This document shows positions 21,346 through 32,100 of a stretch of 64,000 nucleotides of DNA, piece by piece; positions within the stretch are counted from its first letter, which is position 1, and the number at the start of each line of letters is the position of its first letter. Both the position numbers and the translations under genes were made by a program. The DNA lies in contig NW_011887293.1 of NCBI RefSeq assembly GCF_000151315.2, positions 969,585-1,033,584 of the forward strand, read 5' to 3'. The stretch is from Capsaspora owczarzaki ATCC 30864 (lineage: Eukaryota > Opisthokonta > Filasterea). Under the pieces are notes generated by a model. That model was not told where the DNA came from, ran no database searches, and saw nothing but the letters and a program-made list of their open reading frames with translations.

Positions 21346-24300
21346 TCAAGGAGCTGGAGCCGAAGCCAAACCATCGCCCGCAACGGCAGGGGTTGGCAGC
21401 TCGGAGCTAGATGCGCTGGCAGCCGGCCGGACGGGAGTGAACGCACCAGATGTGCCACTCCTCTGGCCGATGGCAGGCTGTGGAGCCCCGGCTCGCAAAG
21501 TCGAAGGCGGCTGCTGCGAACTCGATGCCGGTCGTCCGGATGACATGTCAGGAACAAGACCCGATTGGGATGCACGACCGCGCCCGCCCGTGGAATGCCC
21601 GCCGGGCTGCGTGCGGAGGCGATACGCAATGGCAAAGTAGGACGTGAAGATTTGCATCATGGTGTTGAGAATCGTGAGGTTGTCGGGCTCAAAGACCAGG
21701 GTCATGTAGTGGAGCGGGGCGCTTTGGAGCACATTCACAAAGAACTGCTTCTTGTACCCAGGGTCGACGCCGACCAGTGAGACCTTGTGCAAATCGGCAG
21801 AGAGAATCAGGGTTCCCTGCTCAAACACTTCAAATTGGCGTGCGCCAATCACGACTGTTGCGCGTCTGCTCTTGATCTTGGAGAAGAGCGAAGTGATAGC
21901 TCGAGGCACCAACAGCTTGACGGCGTCGAGGTGCGATCTTGGGCCCTCGACAGTGGCTGGGGCCTCGGGTGGAACAATGTCCGCACAACCCCAGTAAATG
22001 ACGTCAAAGGTGCGCTTCTCAATCACGAATTGCATTTCGCCGCTTTCGTCCAGCACGGGGATATGGGCAGGAGCCGGGCTGGGCAGCGCCTCGAGGACGG
22101 CGAGCGCGGTGGCCAACGGCGATGCGGGAGGCTGTGGAGGCTGCGGCTCTTGTGGTGGTGGGGCTTGCTTGGCAGGCGAAATCTCGGCTGCCGTAAGGTC
22201 TGGCGCAGAGTCGGACGCGAAAAACATGGGGGTCGAAGGTGCAGATGGGGAGGAGGTAGCGGTCGAGGGTGCAGTCGCCGAGGCCGGTTTGCTCGTAAAA
22301 ATGGAAGGGCTGCTCTCCAATCGCGACAGCAGCCAGTTGGTGCGCGGTTTCGAGGGTGCAGGTGACGGTGTAGCTGCCGAGCTGCCTGTAGTGGCTTCGG
22401 TGTCGTTCACGCCTTCGAGCAAGTCGACCGAAGATGGTTGCCTGGAAACGGATGGAGAGTCTTCCACCTGGAAGGATGGGAGGCAGAGGCGGAAGGGGGT
22501 GATTGGCGAAGACAACAAGAAAACAAACAACTCATGAGTCACACGTTGGTGGTGCAACATGACGCCATCAAAAAACGGCCCTTATCACAACGCGTCGACT
22601 TACTTCATCGCCATCCACCGCTATCAAGTCGCCTGTGGGGACCTTCTCGGCCAGCGTGTCAAACTCGGCAGCTTCGGCGACATTCTTGATGACGGCCATC
22701 CACTCGTCACGATCGCGCTCGTTCTCGGCCTGCAGCACCAAGGGATGCTTGGCGATCGCCGGGGACGTGACTGAGAATGCAAATCGTCGATCATCCAAAT
22801 CGTGGACGGTCGCTGTTGCGTTGTGGAGATGCGTGGCAACATGGACAACCTGGGATGTGGAAGTGGGATTGAATTGGGTGGTGAAAACAAAATCAGAATG
22901 AGTCCGAGACGATGAGCAGGCTTTTGGTTACATCTTTTGGGGGTGGGGAGGGGGGAAAAACTCACGTTGTTGTCATCGCTAAAGACCAACTGGTGGTCCA
23001 CAACATCAAACCAGACGCGGTCCCAACGGCGCCCGTTTTTGCCAATCTTGTTTCTGTTGAGAAAGGGCCCCCAAACAATCAGTGAGCAATGGCTGCTAGA
23101 GCAAACAAAAACAACAGTTGTGCAATCCATCGCAAAGCCCATCAGCTCTTACGTGCGGAGCATCAGATAGCCCGTCTTGGTGATAAGCGACAGGTTGGCG
23201 GGAAGATAATCAGCAAAGGGATCATCGGGGTCAGCGTCGGGATTGTACTTGGCCGCGTACTCTTGCTCAATGTGCTCCACAAGTCCTGGAAGACGTTGCA
23301 AATCTTTGGTCGCAAACTCGCGCGACTCGGCCAGCTCGGTGTTGAGTGTTTGCAAGAATGGTCGAACTTGATTCTGAAAGTAGTTGGCTCCCATCTGAAA
23401 GTAGGAGGCTTGGGCGTGCATGAACGCGAGCATGGGCTCGAGCAGCGCAGCCTTGCGCTCGTGTTGGAAGCGCCGCATGGCCACGTAGTACTCGAGCGAC
23501 GCAACGTGAAACTTTTTCCGCGCGGCATACAACTCGGCGTTGGCCTCAAACCTGGCCTTCTCGGTCTCCTTGCGCTTGGACATGCGCGCATACCGCTGGC
23601 AGGCAGACTCGTGCTCGGCTGCCGCTTCCTCGAGCTTGGCGCTGGCCACCTTGACGCTTTTGAGCTGGTCCTGCATGAGACGCTGCAGCGGCTGCATGAG
23701 GACAGACGACAGCTGCCCTTGGTGCAGCTCCTGCCACGAGTGGATTTCGTGCATAATGTTGCTGAATTTGGCCATGGCCGACTCAAACGAGAGGTCCCGC
23801 TCCGTCGCCACACCCGACCCAGCAATCTGCACGTCATAGGGTGCTTGGGGCGAGGGGATGGCGGTCTGCCGCGCCGGCGGGGCAGGCGAGTGGATCAAGG
23901 ATTCCGCGCTCAGCTTGGGAAAAGCTCCGAGCTGCTGGGCGACGTTGTGCATGGCTTTGGACGAGAGCTCGACAGCCTTGTGCAGACGGTTGCCCTCGCC
24001 AATGAGCATGGACGCGTAGTGGCCCGTGGCAGCAGCCTCCTTGCTGTACGAGTGGAAGGTTTGCAGCAGCTTGGGCGAGGTGTGGACGCAATCGAGCAGT
24101 GTTGGGCTTCGCGCCAGAGCAGGAGCAGATCCATCAGCAAGCGGTGTCGGCTCTTGGCTCGCAGCAGTGCGCACGTCGTGAGACGATGGACGAGCAGTCG
24201 AGTTTGGCGGGTTTCGAATGCCATCTGCCAGAGCCTCGTCGGCATCTGTCTGTTCAAGACTGTCGGCCCCACTTGGAGTCAGCTCTGATGCGATTGAAAC

Positions 24301-24903
24301 AAAGGTGGTCGTCGAAGCAGCTGGAGCGGGCTCTGGCACGAGCACATTGGCTTGAGGAGCGCCGCTATTGTTGAGCGACGTGGCGTCCGACGACTTGGAC
24401 GAGCTCGTGGTCGCACTCGCGGGCACGGCGATGGACGCTGATACGTCCTTGTTCTCCCACGCAGCGGTCGGCTGGGTCTCTCGGGCGGCACTGGCACTGG
24501 CACTGGCACTGGCACTTGCAGCATCAGCATCAGCATCAGCTTCGGAAGGAGCATCAACAGCCGTGCCGCTGTGGCCCTGCAGCAGACCGTTGCTCGTGAC
24601 AAAGTTGCTGCTGTTGAGACTGTCCGAGCTGCCGCCCAGCGTGGTGGCCGCGGGCCCGCTCATGTGAGGGACGACGGCGCCAATCATCAGCTGCACGGCG
24701 GCAGGCTCGTCGTTGTCGTCGCCGTCAAAGCTCAGCGCGTCGAGCTCGACTGGGGGCACGTCCAGCAGCAGCAGCTGGTCCTGGTGGTGGTGGTGGTCAT
24801 CGTGGTGGTCGCTGTGGTGCATGAACGCCGCATCGGGGTCTGCGTCGTCGGCAGAGTGGCTGGCTGCGGTGGTTTCAGGGTCGTCTGCTGCAGCAGAATC
24901 CAT
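21346..24903 (-). CDS. APPL: APPL-like BAR-PH-PTB endosomal adaptor
   Basis: The exons are 24903-23153, 23053-22966, 22849-22604 and 22467-21346, giving 1068 residues (human APPL1 ~709). APPL proteins bind Rab5 on early signalling endosomes and curve membranes. After a ~265-residue low-complexity N terminus (His/Asp-rich run, Ala-Ser and Ala-Asp repeats), a BAR domain spans ~268-565. Its R-Y-A-R-M-S-K-R-K and A-L-L-E-P-M-L-A-F-M-H-A-Q segments match APPL closely. A PH domain (~575-695) follows, with W-D-R-V-W-F and D-D-R-R-F-A-F. A Ser/Pro/Ala linker leads to a PTB/PID-like fold (~840-980), then a low-complexity tail. BAR-PH alone could be ACAP, but there is no ArfGAP and the PTB-like end supports APPL. 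The long N-terminal extension is unusual for the family. Confidence 0.85.
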
Positions 24904-25154
24904 TCGGGGAAGAAAGAAAAAAAACAAAGTGAGTTTTTTGCTTTTGATCTTTTGGCTTTGATTTTACGATAAACTTCAACTTGATCATCGTGTAGCAGAT
25001 TCGCTTTGGTGAACAGCAGTCTCGTCATCATTGAACAAAAAAAAACGTCAAGATCAACCATGCAAAACCGAAACGACCAGCGGCATGCGACGAAAAAAAG
25101 CACACAATACAACAAACAAGCACAAGAAACAGGTGACAGAAAAAAATGGGTCTT

Positions 25155-28100
25155 CTACCAGTGAGCGTTGTGAAGCTTGGCAGCCGCTTGGACAAAGTCC
25201 ACATGCGAGGCATACAGCGCGAGACTCTGGTCAATGGCAACCCACTTGACGGCGCCGGCATCGTCGCCAGCCTGGAGCTTGAAGGCCTCAAACACGGTGG
25301 TGTCGTCGTGGAAGTTGACGGCGACCGTCTCCATCCAGGCGTTGTCAGTGTTGCGTGGATCGTCGACATAGCCCTTGAACACGGTCACGCCGTTGCCAAA
25401 CAGCTGGTCGATTTGAGTTTCGAGCTCCTTCTTGCGCTCCTCGGACGCTTCGACCGAGTTCATGGCCTCCTCGCCAAACTCCTTCTTGAGGGTGGCCGAG
25501 ACCGTGTCGCCGGGCTCCACCATGCCGCCAGGAATGGCCCATTGGCCGTTGTCCTTGCGCTTGATGGCGACAAACTCCAAGACGGGCTTGCCGTCGACAA
25601 GAATTTGCTTGCCGCTCTCGTCCCGCTGCCACCGCGTCACCACCGGGTCTGCGGCATGGTTGGGGCCCCATCGTCCAAGCAGTCCGCGCCCTGCAAGACC
25701 AGTGCGGCCCTTGGGGTTGCTGCAGAAAGGACATGCAAAGACAGAGAGAAGAGACCAAGAATGAGTGTGATTGCTCTCATCGTGATTCATCACAACCAAC
25801 ACGAAACAAGCAGCAAAAGTAGAGAGCGGAAACAACTGTTACCGAGGGAGACCATCAACGATCTGGTAGGTGCCTTCAAAGCTGGTGCGGTCCACAGCGC
25901 CATCCACGGCGTTGAACTTGAGGTCGGCCTTTTCCTACACGAGAGGCAAAATGCAGCAAGTCAAGCAACAATTCAAAATGCCGGCAAAACGTTAGTGAGT
26001 CTCCAACAACAACAAAAAAAACCCCCTGACAGATAAACCAAACAAAAACAAAAAACATAAAATTTGAACAAAACTCACGGTACGAACGTCGACATCCGCC
26101 CAAGCCGGCTTGCTCAGCACAACAGGAGCAGTGTAGTCCGTCGGTGAGTAGTTGGGGAAATCGGCACTCCAGGACACGACGGAATCCGACACGGCAGCGC
26201 GCTTGACGCCGCCTTGGTACGTCTCCTCTCGCGCTTTGGTGTGCGGCTTGCTGGCGGACGCTGCCCCGCTGGTTGAAGCCTTGGGAGCGTGCATGGAGCG
26301 AAGCGACTCCTGTCGGTCGAGCGCTGCTCCGGGCTTGTCGTTGGCGGGGTCGTGGAAGTAGCTGCCCTTCAGATCAAAGCTCAGGCAGCGCTGCACAGTG
26401 CGTTCCCAGAAGCGGAAGGTGTCGCGGACAGCCTGCGACAGGGGTTGCGGCTGGAAGACACGCTGGGACTTGCGCAGAGCAGACAGCTCGTCTCGGGAGG
26501 TCCAGATGCCCGCCGCGAGGCCCGCAAGGAAGGCAGACCCCAATGCAGTCATGTCAAGCGTCTCTGCAATGTCGAGCGGTGTTTGGGTCAGCGTACTGCA
26601 CAGCTGAAGGAGGAAGGCGTTGCGGCATACACCGCCGTCCATGCGGACAGAGTTGAGGCGGATGGGAACATCCGTCTTGAGAATATCAAACAATTGCTTG
26701 AACTGGTACGCGATCGCCTCGAGCAGCGCGCGAACGCAGTGCTCTTTGGTGGAGCCAAAGGTCAGGCCCATGAATGCAGCGCGCGCGTTGGGGTCATTGT
26801 ACGGCGCCTGCAGGCCGTTGAAACCGGGCACGAGGTAGACACCGTCCGAATCAGGAACGGACTCTGCCATTGCCTGCGTCTGTCCAGGCTCCTGGTACAA
26901 GCCTACACAGTATTTTGGTTGTCGTGGTTGGAAGGAACCAAAACAACAAAAAGGAGGGGGACGGGGAGGGGTGGCATGACAAAAAAAAAAGTGAGCAACT
27001 CTCTAGCTGAGCGGCATGACAGAAGAATTAGTGAATAGGAAGCACCAAATGCTTACCAAAGCGTTGGCCCCATTCAATCATGGAGCCAGCAGAAGATGCG
27101 ACCGCCTCGGCGAGAAAGACAACCTCGTCGCCAATCTTCCATGCGACAAGCGGGTAGAGGCCCTTGTCGGAAGCGTGGGGCTTGGAGCCAGTGTTAATGT
27201 CCATCATCATGCCAGTGCCAATCGTGACCTTGACATCGCCACGCTTGAAGCAGCACTCGCCGAACAGGGCGCTTTGCTGATCCGCAACCACCGCAGTGAT
27301 TGGGATGGGCGCGCCGAACAGGGAGGCTTCCGTCGAGCCGAAAGTGCCGCTGGTGTCGCGAATCTCTGGAAAGATGCTGCGCGGGATGGACAGCATGTTG
27401 ATCACAAAGTCGTTCCAGCCCATTTGGAAGGGGTCGAACAGGCCGGTCGAGCTCATGTTGGAGTAATCGGTCGCGTGAAGGGCGCCGGCGGAGAACTTGT
27501 ACAGCAGCCACGTGTCGACGGTGCCGAACATGAGCTTGCCTGCCTTGGCCATCGGCAGCGCTTCGGGAATGTTTTGGAAGATCCACGCAAGGCGAATGGA
27601 AACCTGCACCGTCGTGAAGGTGAACGAGCTGGCGGCCTTCATGCGCGAGGCGCGTGTGAACGTGTGGGCCAGCTTGGCACCCGTCGTGACGGACTAGACG
27701 AAGTACGCGGCGGAAAAAAACAAACAACAAAGTGAGGAACAAAACGAAACGGAACGATACAAGAGACAAAAAAGCAGCGGTCAAAAAATGAAGAGACAGC
27801 TGAACCAACCTTCATCGAAAAGGACGAATTCCACTCGCGGCAAAGCTTGGCCGCACGCAAGTCTTGCCAAGTGATAAAGTTATGCAGGGGCTTGCCAGTG
27901 TCGCTGCAGGCGTGAAGCCAAGGGGGGTAACGTTAGTGTTTTGAAGGTTCAATTGAAACGACATCGACAAACAAACGCAACACAAGGTCCTTTTACCGAT
28001 TCCAGTTGGTGAACGAGTTTCGCTGCGTGGTGATGCCCAAGCACGAGATCTGAGCTGCTGGGACCTTGGACGCTGTGGGTTTGGCACACAAAAACGGTCA

Positions 28101-28897
28101 GAAATGGATGTTTCCATTGAGGACAGCAATGCTGCACCCATTACCTTTGATAGCATCGGTGATGACCTGCTTGCACTGCGACCACAGAATCTCGGGATCC
28201 ATTTCAATCCAGCCAGGGTGCGGGTAGATCGGGATGGTCTGGTTCAGTGCACACAAGAACGGGGGATTAGTGGTAAGGTCGAGATTAGCATTGAGGTTGG
28301 AACTCGTGATTGCCGTTGCTATTGCTGTTTTGGGATGTGAGTGTGTGTGCTATCTATTATTGCACTGGTGGATGTCGCCACACTCACACACAGCATTGAC
28401 AAAGAGAGCGAAGAAGAAAAAAAAAAAAAAAAAAAAGAGGACAATAATAATAATCATCGCTGCGAAGAATCACAGTGCTTCAGCTGCAGCGTGAGTGACG
28501 ACCGCCCAGAGCAGGACAGCGCGACCAACAACAAGCGAGGAAGGTGGCTGGGTGTCGAGTGACGAGACTCGTGTGGGTTGGCTGTGCAGGGAAGAAGGAG
28601 CACACAAGTCTCAATTTGCATTGAGCTCGAGGCGGGGCTCATTATTTCCCCCTCGCCCTTCCTCTGTCAGTCTTCACTCCAATGCACTCCGGCCACACAC
28701 TCGAGCAGACAAGGGAGCCCTTTCTGTGTAATCCATCGATGGCGTGGGGAGGGAGGGGGGGTGGCTGAGGAGGAGAAACTGTTGTTGGTCACCTTGACAT
28801 AGGACGAGCCATGCACTTTGGTGTGCTGATCCAGAACGACGGCCCGGATGCCAGTTGTGCCCACATCCAGCGAGAGGACGTACTTGAGATCAGACAT
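25155..28897 (-). CDS. GK5-NUDT9: GK5-type glycerol kinase fused to NUDT9 ADP-ribose pyrophosphatase
   Basis: The eight exons are 28897-28793, 28238-28145, 28072-27997, 27903-27810, 27693-27057, 26902-26079, 25934-25843 and 25719-25155. All junctions keep frame, giving 828 residues. Residues 1-~515 are an FGGY kinase of the GK5 branch: [52 protein letters not shown] ~37-residue linker follows. Residues ~553-828 are a full NUDT9: [26 protein letters not shown], the Nudix box, [15 protein letters not shown] and L-Y-A-S-H. The join lies inside one 824-nt exon with no stop, so read-through is real at DNA level. The product may pair glycerol phosphorylation with ADP-ribose hydrolysis to AMP and ribose-5-phosphate. 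Met-539 could serve as an alternative NUDT9-only start. Confidence 0.88.
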
Positions 28898-29141
28898 CCT
28901 GAGACGTTGAGAATAATAATAATAATAAGAAAAAAAAAGAGTGCAGAGTGGTAAATTCGTACACTTTTGAATCATCGACAAGAAACGCTTTGATTGTTTG
29001 GATTTGAATGCAAAACGCTGGTGTTCTCAGATAGCGAAGGGACATCTCAAAAAAAGAAATTGTTCATTGGGCATGGACATTCACACACCATGCATCAAAA
29101 TAACAAGACAACAGAGAAGAAAAAGACAAGACAAAACAAGT

Positions 29142-32100
29142 TTACTCGTCCTTCTTGCCACCACGCTCCTTCTCGTAAGCACGAACAAGCTCAAGCTGAG
29201 TGCTCATGGGCACTGGTGCGTGACGGACATACTCCATCGAAAACTCGCCCTTGCCCTACAAGTGACAAGCAGAAACAAACATCATCCGTGAGCTTGTGTT
29301 GATTTGGCCCCCAACTTAAGACTAACAAAAGAAAAGAAAAAAAAAAAAAACACCACATACCTGAGTCGCAGAACGCAATTCGGTGGAATAGCCAAACATG
29401 TTGTTCAGCGGAACCTCAGTCTGGAGAACGCAGTAGCCGTCCGAAACCTCGCTGTCCAGAATCATGCCCTTGCGGCGGTTGACTTGGCCAGACACGGCAC
29501 CCTGGTGCTCCTCGGGGATGGTGATTTCAACCTTCATGATGGGCTCGAGCAGGATCGGGCTGCCGTTGGCGTACGCTTGACGGACTGCGCCACGAGCAGC
29601 GAGGCGGAAGGCCAATTCGTTCGAATCGACAGGGTGCGATTGGCCGTCCTTGAGATCGAAGCGGATGCCAACGATGCGGTTGCCGGTGAGCGAGCCGCGG
29701 TCGCACGCCTCCTGGAAGCCGCGCTCAATCGCCGGGACGAACGCGGGCGCAATGTTCATGCCAATCATGGTGTTGGTAAACTCGTTGGCGTCGCCGGCTT
29801 CCTCGCCGATGGGCTCGATCGTGCCAATGACACGGCCGTACTGACCCGAGCCACCAGACTGCTTCTTGTGCAGGTAGTCAAAGTTGACGGGAGCAGTGAT
29901 GGTCTCGCGGAAGGCAACCTTTGGCTTGCCGGAAATGGTGGGGCAGTTGTACTCGCGCTTCATGCGCTCCAAGTACACTTCCAAGTGGAGTTCACCCATG
30001 CCGGAAATGATGGTCTGTGTAGAGTGGAGGAGTTTTGGTCGAAGTCAGCACCCGAAAAAAAACACCAAGCAAAGGGATGAACAGCGAAAAAGCCGGAAAA
30101 AAAAAAAAAAAAAAAAAAACTCCACAAACCTCCTTGCTGTCCGCGTCAAAGGACAAGCGGAACGTGGGATCTTCTTTGGTGAATCGGCCAAGAGCCTTGC
30201 TGAAACGTTCGAGATCATCCTTGCGCTCGGGCCGGATGGCGAGTGAGATGACCGGCTCGGGAACAAACATGGAGGTCTGCGCATCAACAAGCGAGCGAGC
30301 ACGTTCAAAAATCCAATCCAAATGTAGTCGTCTCATGTGAGTACCATCCAGAGGCGGGGGGGGGGAGAAGGAAAGGAACACGAGAGGGAGGGGGAAGGCA
30401 CTCACCATAGCCAAAGAGGTCGTGCCGTCAGTGAAGGTGTCGCCGGAGGCGCAGTCAACGCCAAACATGGCGCAAATCTGACCAGCGTGGGCTTCTTGGA
30501 TTTCCTCCATCTCGTTTGCGTGCATCTGCACCAGGCGAGGGACCTTGATCTTCTTGCGATCACGAGCGTTCATGATAAACTCGCCGCGACGAATGCGGCC
30601 TTGGTAGACACGCAAGTACGTAAGCTGGCCAAAGCGTCCTGCGTTCCAAAGGCACAGGGTCACAGAGTCAAAGTGTCAGCGATACGATACAAAAAGGGGG
30701 AGGTCGAGTGAGAGGATCGGACAAGGAGGGGGGGGGGAAAAAAAAGAAAGGAAAAAAAAAAAGAGTTTAGCGCAGGCGAGTAACAAGTTTGGAACACGAG
30801 TCTATTAGAAGATAGAAACTGCTTTAGGCTCAGATGCTAGATTATCTCGTGAACCAGTGGCTCCCCTGCGAAAATGATGAGTTGGGCAATTTTGTTTTAT
30901 GCCGATTCCCGAACGGCATCTCCTCGGTCTCTCTCTCTCACGAACCCCCCTCCAAAAAAACAGCCTCCGCTCACGAAAAAGACCCCAACCACTGTATCAA
31001 TGAGGATTGAAAAGAAAAAAGGCGAAAGTCTGCCGCTTGAAAGGATCGGAGGGGGAAAAACGAGGTCATGACATAATCGGCAGGAGCTGACGTGTTGGCT
31101 CACCTTCTTCCAGCTTGAACGCCAGGCCAAGGAACGGCTCCTTTTCGAGGTTCTCGGGATGGACAAGCACCTTTTCGTTGTTGTTGTTGAGGTCAAGGGC
31201 GTAGTTTTTGATTTCGGTCGGGTTGGGCATGTAGGTCACAATGCTGTTGAGGAGCATCTGGACGCCCTTGTTCTTGAGCGCGGTACCGCACAGCACGGGA
31301 GTAAACTTGCGAGAGATGGTAGCACGACGAACGGCGGCCTGCGTGATGGAGGAGGAAGGGTGGGGAGAATGCGAGGAAGGGAACAAAGGGAAATTGTGAA
31401 TTTGGCGCAGAATTCTTCACCCCCCCCCTGTACCACCGAGTATACTCACGCGAAGTTGGTCCGCAGTCGGCTCGACCTCGTTCAAAAAGAGCTCGCCCAG
31501 TTCGTCGTCGACGTCGGCCACGGCTTCAATCAAAAGTGCACGACGCTCGGCAATCACGGTGGCCAGCGCGGCCGGGGGCGCCTCACGACGGATGGTCTCG
31601 CTATTTTCATTGGAAAATACAATAAACGTGAGCTGGAATTTGCCCCAGGTCAAGCTGCAATGTATGTGAGCATGAGAAGAACCTGACGCTTACCCGAAAG
31701 TGCCCTCGTTGTAAAGCGCAACGTTGTCAATCAGATCGACAACACCAGTAAAGTTCTCTTCCGCTCCGATCGGGACTTGGAGCATGGCGGCATTGTGACG
31801 GAGCTTGTTACGGAGCTGCTCGCAGATCTTGAAGGCATTTGCACCAGGACGATCGAGTTTGTTGACAAAGGCGATGGCGGGGACGTTGTAGCGTTTCATT
31901 TGGCGGTCGACAGTCAGGGTTTGGCTCTGCAACAGACGGCAAAAAAAACGGTCGGGATGGGAGAAGGGCTGAGCATCAAGCGGCCGGACAAAGGCGTTTT
32001 TTGTTTTTTCGACAAACTCGACACCGATCAACTCACCTGAACACCACCCACGCCGCAAAGCACAAGGACGGCGCCATCAAGCACGCGCAGAGATCGTTCG

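Follow-up and report, generated by a model that had tools for sequence, protein, structure and literature searches.

We consider it likely that a single nuclear gene of Capsaspora owczarzaki ATCC 30864 encodes one protein with two enzymes, in which a glycerol-kinase-like kinase of the FGGY family is joined through a linker to a NUDT9-type Nudix hydrolase. The gene lies in a 64,000-nucleotide stretch of contig NW_011887293.1 (the window, to which all coordinates of the gene and its neighbours refer), and one full-length mRNA and one protein would be made from it. This is a new combination of known domain families, and the pairing is unusual. A first-pass annotation of the window had proposed a two-enzyme protein that couples glycerol or polyol phosphorylation with ADP-ribose clearance, perhaps in mitochondria; of this reading, the gene model with its FGGY kinase and NUDT9-type parts held, but glycerol phosphorylation and, for the full-length form, the mitochondrial location were not supported. 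The annotation had also called the pairing undescribed, in agreement with our literature search of limited coverage (most subscription papers and gene catalogues were outside its scope), in which no paper brought NUDT9 together with either Capsaspora or glycerol kinase.

Our own splicing placed the gene on the minus strand, with the ATG at 28897-28895 and the stop codon at 25157-25155, and reproduced the eight in-frame exons and 828 residues annotated before (Table 1). Likewise, splicing together with Pfam recovered the single exon of 824 nt that bears both the kinase end and the NUDT9 start. All seven introns are of the GT-AG type; intron 1 is 554 nt long and the others measure 72-154 nt. At five of the seven exon junctions, the alignment is free of gaps for five columns around the junction: after residues 35, 66 and 92 in the comparison with E. 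coli GlpK, and after residues 610 and 641 in that with human NUDT9. Gaps do occur close to the other two, which follow residues 123 and 335. The upstream neighbour, from 29142 on the same strand, is an elongation factor G gene, whose stop codon (29142-29144) is 244 nt before the fusion ATG. The fused gene also neighbours a minus-strand open frame at 23149-24963, which contains a BAR domain of the APPL type together with a Ser/Ala repeat.

Table 1 Features of the fused gene and its upstream flank (positions in the window)
Feature	Position	Strand	Description
Whole fused gene	25155..28897	minus	ATG to stop codon, 8 exons, 828 aa
Exon 1	28793..28897	minus	aa 1-35, kinase start with DVGTTG loop; FGGY_N from residue 6
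Exon 2	28145..28238	minus	from our own splicing
Exon 3	27997..28072	minus	contains R84-N85 (GlpK R83-E84)
Exon 4	27810..27903	minus	contains W104 (GlpK W103)
Exon 5	27057..27693	minus	F147 (GlpK Y135), D261-Q262 (GlpK D245-Q246), M286 (GlpK F270)
Exon 6	26079..26902	minus	824 nt; completes FGGY_C, then encodes the linker and the beginning of the NUDT9 part
Linker	26247..26372	minus	aa 513-554, rich in Ala/Ser and coding-like in composition; contains Met539 (26292-26294)
Exon 7	25843..25934	minus	from our own splicing
Exon 8	25155..25719	minus	Nudix core through stop codon; Nudix helix with E721, E725
Upstream intergenic stretch	28898..29141	minus	244 nt, GC 0.35, reaches the stop codon of the elongation factor G gene

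A profile search with the 828-residue model recovered FGGY_N (residues 6-268, E = 1.2e-46), FGGY_C (278-466, 1.7e-32) and NUDIX (691-806, 1.1e-7), each above its own Pfam gathering cut-off. When the protein was compared with PDB sequences by phmmer, glycerol kinases matched residues 3-516 (best E = 5.7e-107) and human NUDT9 matched residues 555-828 (E = 2.3e-100; a further comparison gave 1.3e-101 for 1Q33 over 274 query residues). Residues 1-512 would form the glycerol-kinase-like FGGY kinase, probably of the GK5 type, and a short Ala/Ser-rich linker of 42 residues (aa 513-554) would connect it to the NUDT9-type Nudix hydrolase (aa 555-828).

As the annotation had stated, the frame of the spliced model is open from the kinase into the NUDT9 part. 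At the local noncoding stop frequency (50 in 1733 trinucleotides), however, 43 codons would stay open by chance with a probability of about 0.28; the open frame was therefore dropped as sole proof of fusion, and composition was used in its place. The composition test is a local one, because the codon table was built from the fused gene with aa 506-574 left out, and the noncoding background from the introns of this gene and the two stretches flanking it. In this test, the segment aa 513-555 scored 0.69 bits per codon as codon log-ratio in frame, compared with -0.14 and 0.23 in the two other frames of the linker; its GC content was 0.67 and its GC3 0.81. Windows over the whole coding sequence, linker included, averaged 0.82 bits per codon (sd 0.22, minimum 0.32); the maximum among 702 overlapping noncoding windows was 0.11, a value that one wrong linker frame (0.23) likewise exceeds. 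The GC content of the intergenic stretches flanking the gene is 0.35 and 0.38.

The splice signals bear on the possibility that two adjacent genes were wrongly joined here, with the kinase ending on another exon and NUDT9 having its own start. In animals, where no fusion of GK5 to NUDT9 is known, the two proteins come from separate genes, which would fit such a view, as would the fact that another donor in exon 6 is conceivable: the stretch from aa 467 to aa 554 contains nine GT dinucleotides, of which two begin GTG. Against it, the frame has no stop after the kinase, and the only two GT dinucleotides of the linker both read GTC, as does none of the seven donors of the gene. A scan of exon 6 for GTRNG donors gave none after aa 438, but it is a weak scan that counts little, since only two of the seven real donors fit this pattern, and it was dropped as proof against two genes. 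Overall, we regard two wrongly joined genes as very improbable. An alternative splice form within exon 6 is unlikely, albeit conceivable, because both linker GTs read GTC but the other seven of the nine lie between aa 467 and 512. At the level of the DNA, the analysis confirmed that the joint of FGGY kinase and NUDT9-type hydrolase looks real.

The hydrolase half (aa 555-828) is identical to human NUDT9 (1Q33) in 154 of 274 aligned residues and to the TRPM2 of S. rosetta in 126 of 279. In PMC11479946, nine residues are named for binding and hydrolysis of ADP-ribose (ADPR) in the choanoflagellate TRPM2 enzyme. Eight of these are kept in the fusion (W603, D665, R695, E721, E725, D761, R763 and D794), and in place of the ninth, the adenine-stacking Phe, the fusion and human NUDT9 alike have Met. 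The Mg-binding Nudix glutamates, the catalytic Asp and the ribose-binding Asp/Arg are thus present (E721, E725, D794, D665, D761, R763). According to that paper, human TRPM2 is without equivalents of E721 and D794, both of which are retained in the fusion. Two positions of the Nudix helix differ from human NUDT9, with D for the GX5E glutamate and K for the REF arginine; the TRPM2 of Nematostella, which likewise deviates at these positions (Q and A), is described there as an active hydrolase (PMC11479946). From the sequence, we expect the hydrolase half to be active on ADPR, which it would split to AMP and ribose 5-phosphate. The NUDT9 and ADP-ribose part of the earlier reading is thereby borne out as far as a NUDT9-type hydrolase with the key site residues is concerned.

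The fusion shares its Mg-binding and ribose-binding residues with human NUDT9 (1Q33), but here the domain forms the C-terminal part of a protein that starts with a kinase and apparently lacks an N-terminal presequence. A C-terminal NUDT9-type domain on another protein is also found in the TRPM2 channel-enzymes of choanoflagellates (8SR7, E = 1.3e-66 with the fusion) and the sea anemone (6CO7, E = 4.8e-100), whereas the partner in the fusion is an FGGY kinase; at E values up to 0.01, Pfam gave FGGY_N, FGGY_C and NUDIX only, and no TRPM channel module.

With FGGY_N and FGGY_C above their gathering scores and the catalytic Asp (D261) kept, the first half of the protein has the hallmarks of an FGGY carbohydrate kinase. 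It resembles E. coli GlpK (1BO5) as a full-length FGGY kinase match, with 150 of 398 aligned residues identical when compared over fusion aa 3-417. It differs from GlpK in scoring below both NCBIfam GlpK cut-offs (439.7 bits against 590.35 for TIGR01311 and 453 against 498 for NF000756, equivalog/subfamily models made for prokaryote proteins) and in its glycerol contacts. Seven such contacts are given for Plasmodium glycerol kinase in PMC2680290, and we transferred them to E. coli GlpK numbering; four are kept (R84, W104, D261, Q262) and three are altered, namely E84 to N (N85), Y135 to F (F147, beside alignment gaps) and F270 to M (M286).

FGGY_N matched four loci in the genome: the fused gene, C4, C16 and C11. 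One C4 piece had its best NCBIfam score for glycerol kinase, and C4 pieces retain NQRES and GTGCFM, the equivalents of E84 and F270. The C11 piece and one C16 piece scored best, but weakly, as xylulokinase; for the second C16 piece, NCBIfam gave no match, but FGGY_C is present. Because of the changed contacts, the scores below the GlpK cut-offs and the GlpK-type nature of C4, the kinase half reads as a second, divergent glycerol-kinase-like gene beside a separate GlpK-type gene. On the same three grounds, glycerol is not supported as the kinase substrate, and the glycerol phosphorylation proposed by the annotation was not upheld; other polyols or sugars are possible. Animals, similarly, have a glycerol-kinase-like paralogue, GK5, in addition to GK, just as the fused gene here exists alongside a GlpK-type gene. 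A 2026 preprint describes Gk5 as minimally characterised in systemic metabolism (PMC13320870).

Since three glycerol contacts differ, the kinase may act on a different substrate, or it may have no activity. A further view, which overlaps with the two-enzyme reading as regards the fusion itself, takes the kinase half to be a pseudo-kinase, either regulatory or inactive, that would hold or sense a ligand for the NUDT9 half. The N, F and M at the equivalents of E84, Y135 and F270 are compatible with this, as is the score below both GlpK cut-offs, but the catalytic Asp D261 is retained together with R84, W104 and Q262, and the matches to FGGY_N and FGGY_C cover almost the full length of each domain. 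We therefore consider a pseudo-kinase rather unlikely and prefer a two-enzyme protein whose kinase half, with the catalytic Asp and Arg kept, would still carry out ATP-dependent transfer to a polyol or sugar, not necessarily glycerol.

Residue 3 of the fusion aligns with GlpK residue 2, and because the kinase similarity begins there, the full-length form would have no presequence. Translation from an in-frame upstream ATG at 28975 (stretch 28898-28975, which includes a (TAT)n run) would extend the protein by 26 residues, none of them acidic; these 26 codons have a GC content of 0.29 and score -1.13 bits per codon, compared with 0.76 for the first 26 kinase codons. Given the GlpK-like start at residue 3 and the noncoding-like upstream stretch, we rejected a mitochondrial presequence on the full-length fusion as improbable, and "perhaps in mitochondria" is not supported for this form. 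The full-length fusion is probably cytosolic, and the gene product is probably a cytosolic bifunctional enzyme.

Alternatively, the locus could give two products, the full-length fusion and a NUDT9-only form starting at Met539 with a leader that is possibly mitochondrial, as in animals. This leader (aa 539-560) is acid-free, basic and Ser/Ala-rich (22 residues with 4 K/R, 2 H, 12 S/T/A and no D/E), NUDT9 is called mitochondrial in PMC11479946, and the genome gave no further NUDT9-type match with the Nudix exon as query. On the other hand, the linker is coding-like, unlike the flanking intergenic DNA, and the NUDT9-only form would require an internal promoter, because seventeen in-frame Met codons come before Met539. 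We judge a second product of this kind to be unlikely and retain the single full-length protein as our preferred reading.

In the 27,456,641 bases of the genome, the NUDT9-type (Nudix) exon as query had one match, the fused gene itself, and neither a stand-alone NUDT9 nor TRPM2 was found with it. The fusion exon as query matched itself and, weakly, a C4 piece (E = 0.007). NUDIX matches of all kinds numbered eleven, fused gene included; since these are unclassified, an ADPR hydrolase of another kind elsewhere in the genome is possible. As for the assembly itself, both Capsaspora GAPDH primers printed in PMC9170242 match it exactly at one locus, and a 22-mer of the Capsaspora actin terminator has exact matches at two places (none in the reversed control). 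The assembly gave no match to two coYki sequences published for Capsaspora, a 90-nt arm and a 20-nt primer.

Peptide-pattern scans, which miss distant relatives because they first require six short peptides, revealed NUDT9-type relatives at 23 bacterial loci in a prokaryote genome collection and at 5 viral loci in IMG/VR. No match to the kinase half was present near any of the 23 bacterial or 5 viral loci, within flanks of up to 8 kb and 5 kb, respectively, that were often ended by contig ends. In L013 and L021, a nucleoside-hydrolase-like domain that is below the Pfam and NCBIfam cut-offs is combined with a NUDT9-type domain, and in L015 and L027 the nucleoside-hydrolase-like part was assigned by similarity to L021. 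These Schlesneria and Myxococcales MAG fusions (L013:6654-8699, L015:6615-8699, L027:6699-8699, L021:6276-8702) have a XopQ-like partner, which in L013 and L021 is below the XopQ family cut-off; over their N-terminal parts, the three Schlesneria frames share ~56% identity with L021. In Omnitrophus magneticus, one open frame of 2201 codons (L025:4533-11135) has the NUDT9-type NUDIX among NAD-salvage domains, comprising NAPRTase, an isochorismatase-type domain, a second NAPRTase N-terminal domain, NUDIX, CN_hydrolase and NAD synthase, as though a complete NAD salvage route had been placed on a single polypeptide. A NUDT9-type domain also lies within an open frame of 741 codons, with a proline run and repeats, on a contig assigned to Endozoicomonas by binning (L011:2335-4557). 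The bacterial fusions L013, L015, L021, L027 and L025 resemble the Capsaspora gene in that a NUDT9-type domain is joined to other enzymes, but their partners are nucleoside-hydrolase-like or belong to NAD salvage, and an FGGY kinase occurred in none of the 23 loci. By analogy, these fusions fit a role of the hydrolase half in ADPR/NAD metabolism and are uninformative on the kinase half.

The benefit of the fusion may lie mainly in co-expression and co-localisation rather than in channelling, and functional coupling of the two halves is put forward here as a hypothesis. In its most specific form, the fusion would reflect a functional partnership in which the substrate of the GK5-type kinase is a sugar or polyol derived from ribose or NAD, within the pathway to which NUDT9 supplies ribose 5-phosphate, a role that animal GK5 would keep as a separate protein; we regard this as quite doubtful. 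Should the two halves be made as a single chain, the protein would represent a second route, besides TRPM2, by which a NUDT9-type domain was fused in a lineage near animals, and NUDT9-type ADP-ribose breakdown would be placed in the cytosol of an organism in whose genome we found no other NUDT9-type match. By the logic of inferring function from gene fusion, it would also provide a testable hint on GK5-type kinases.
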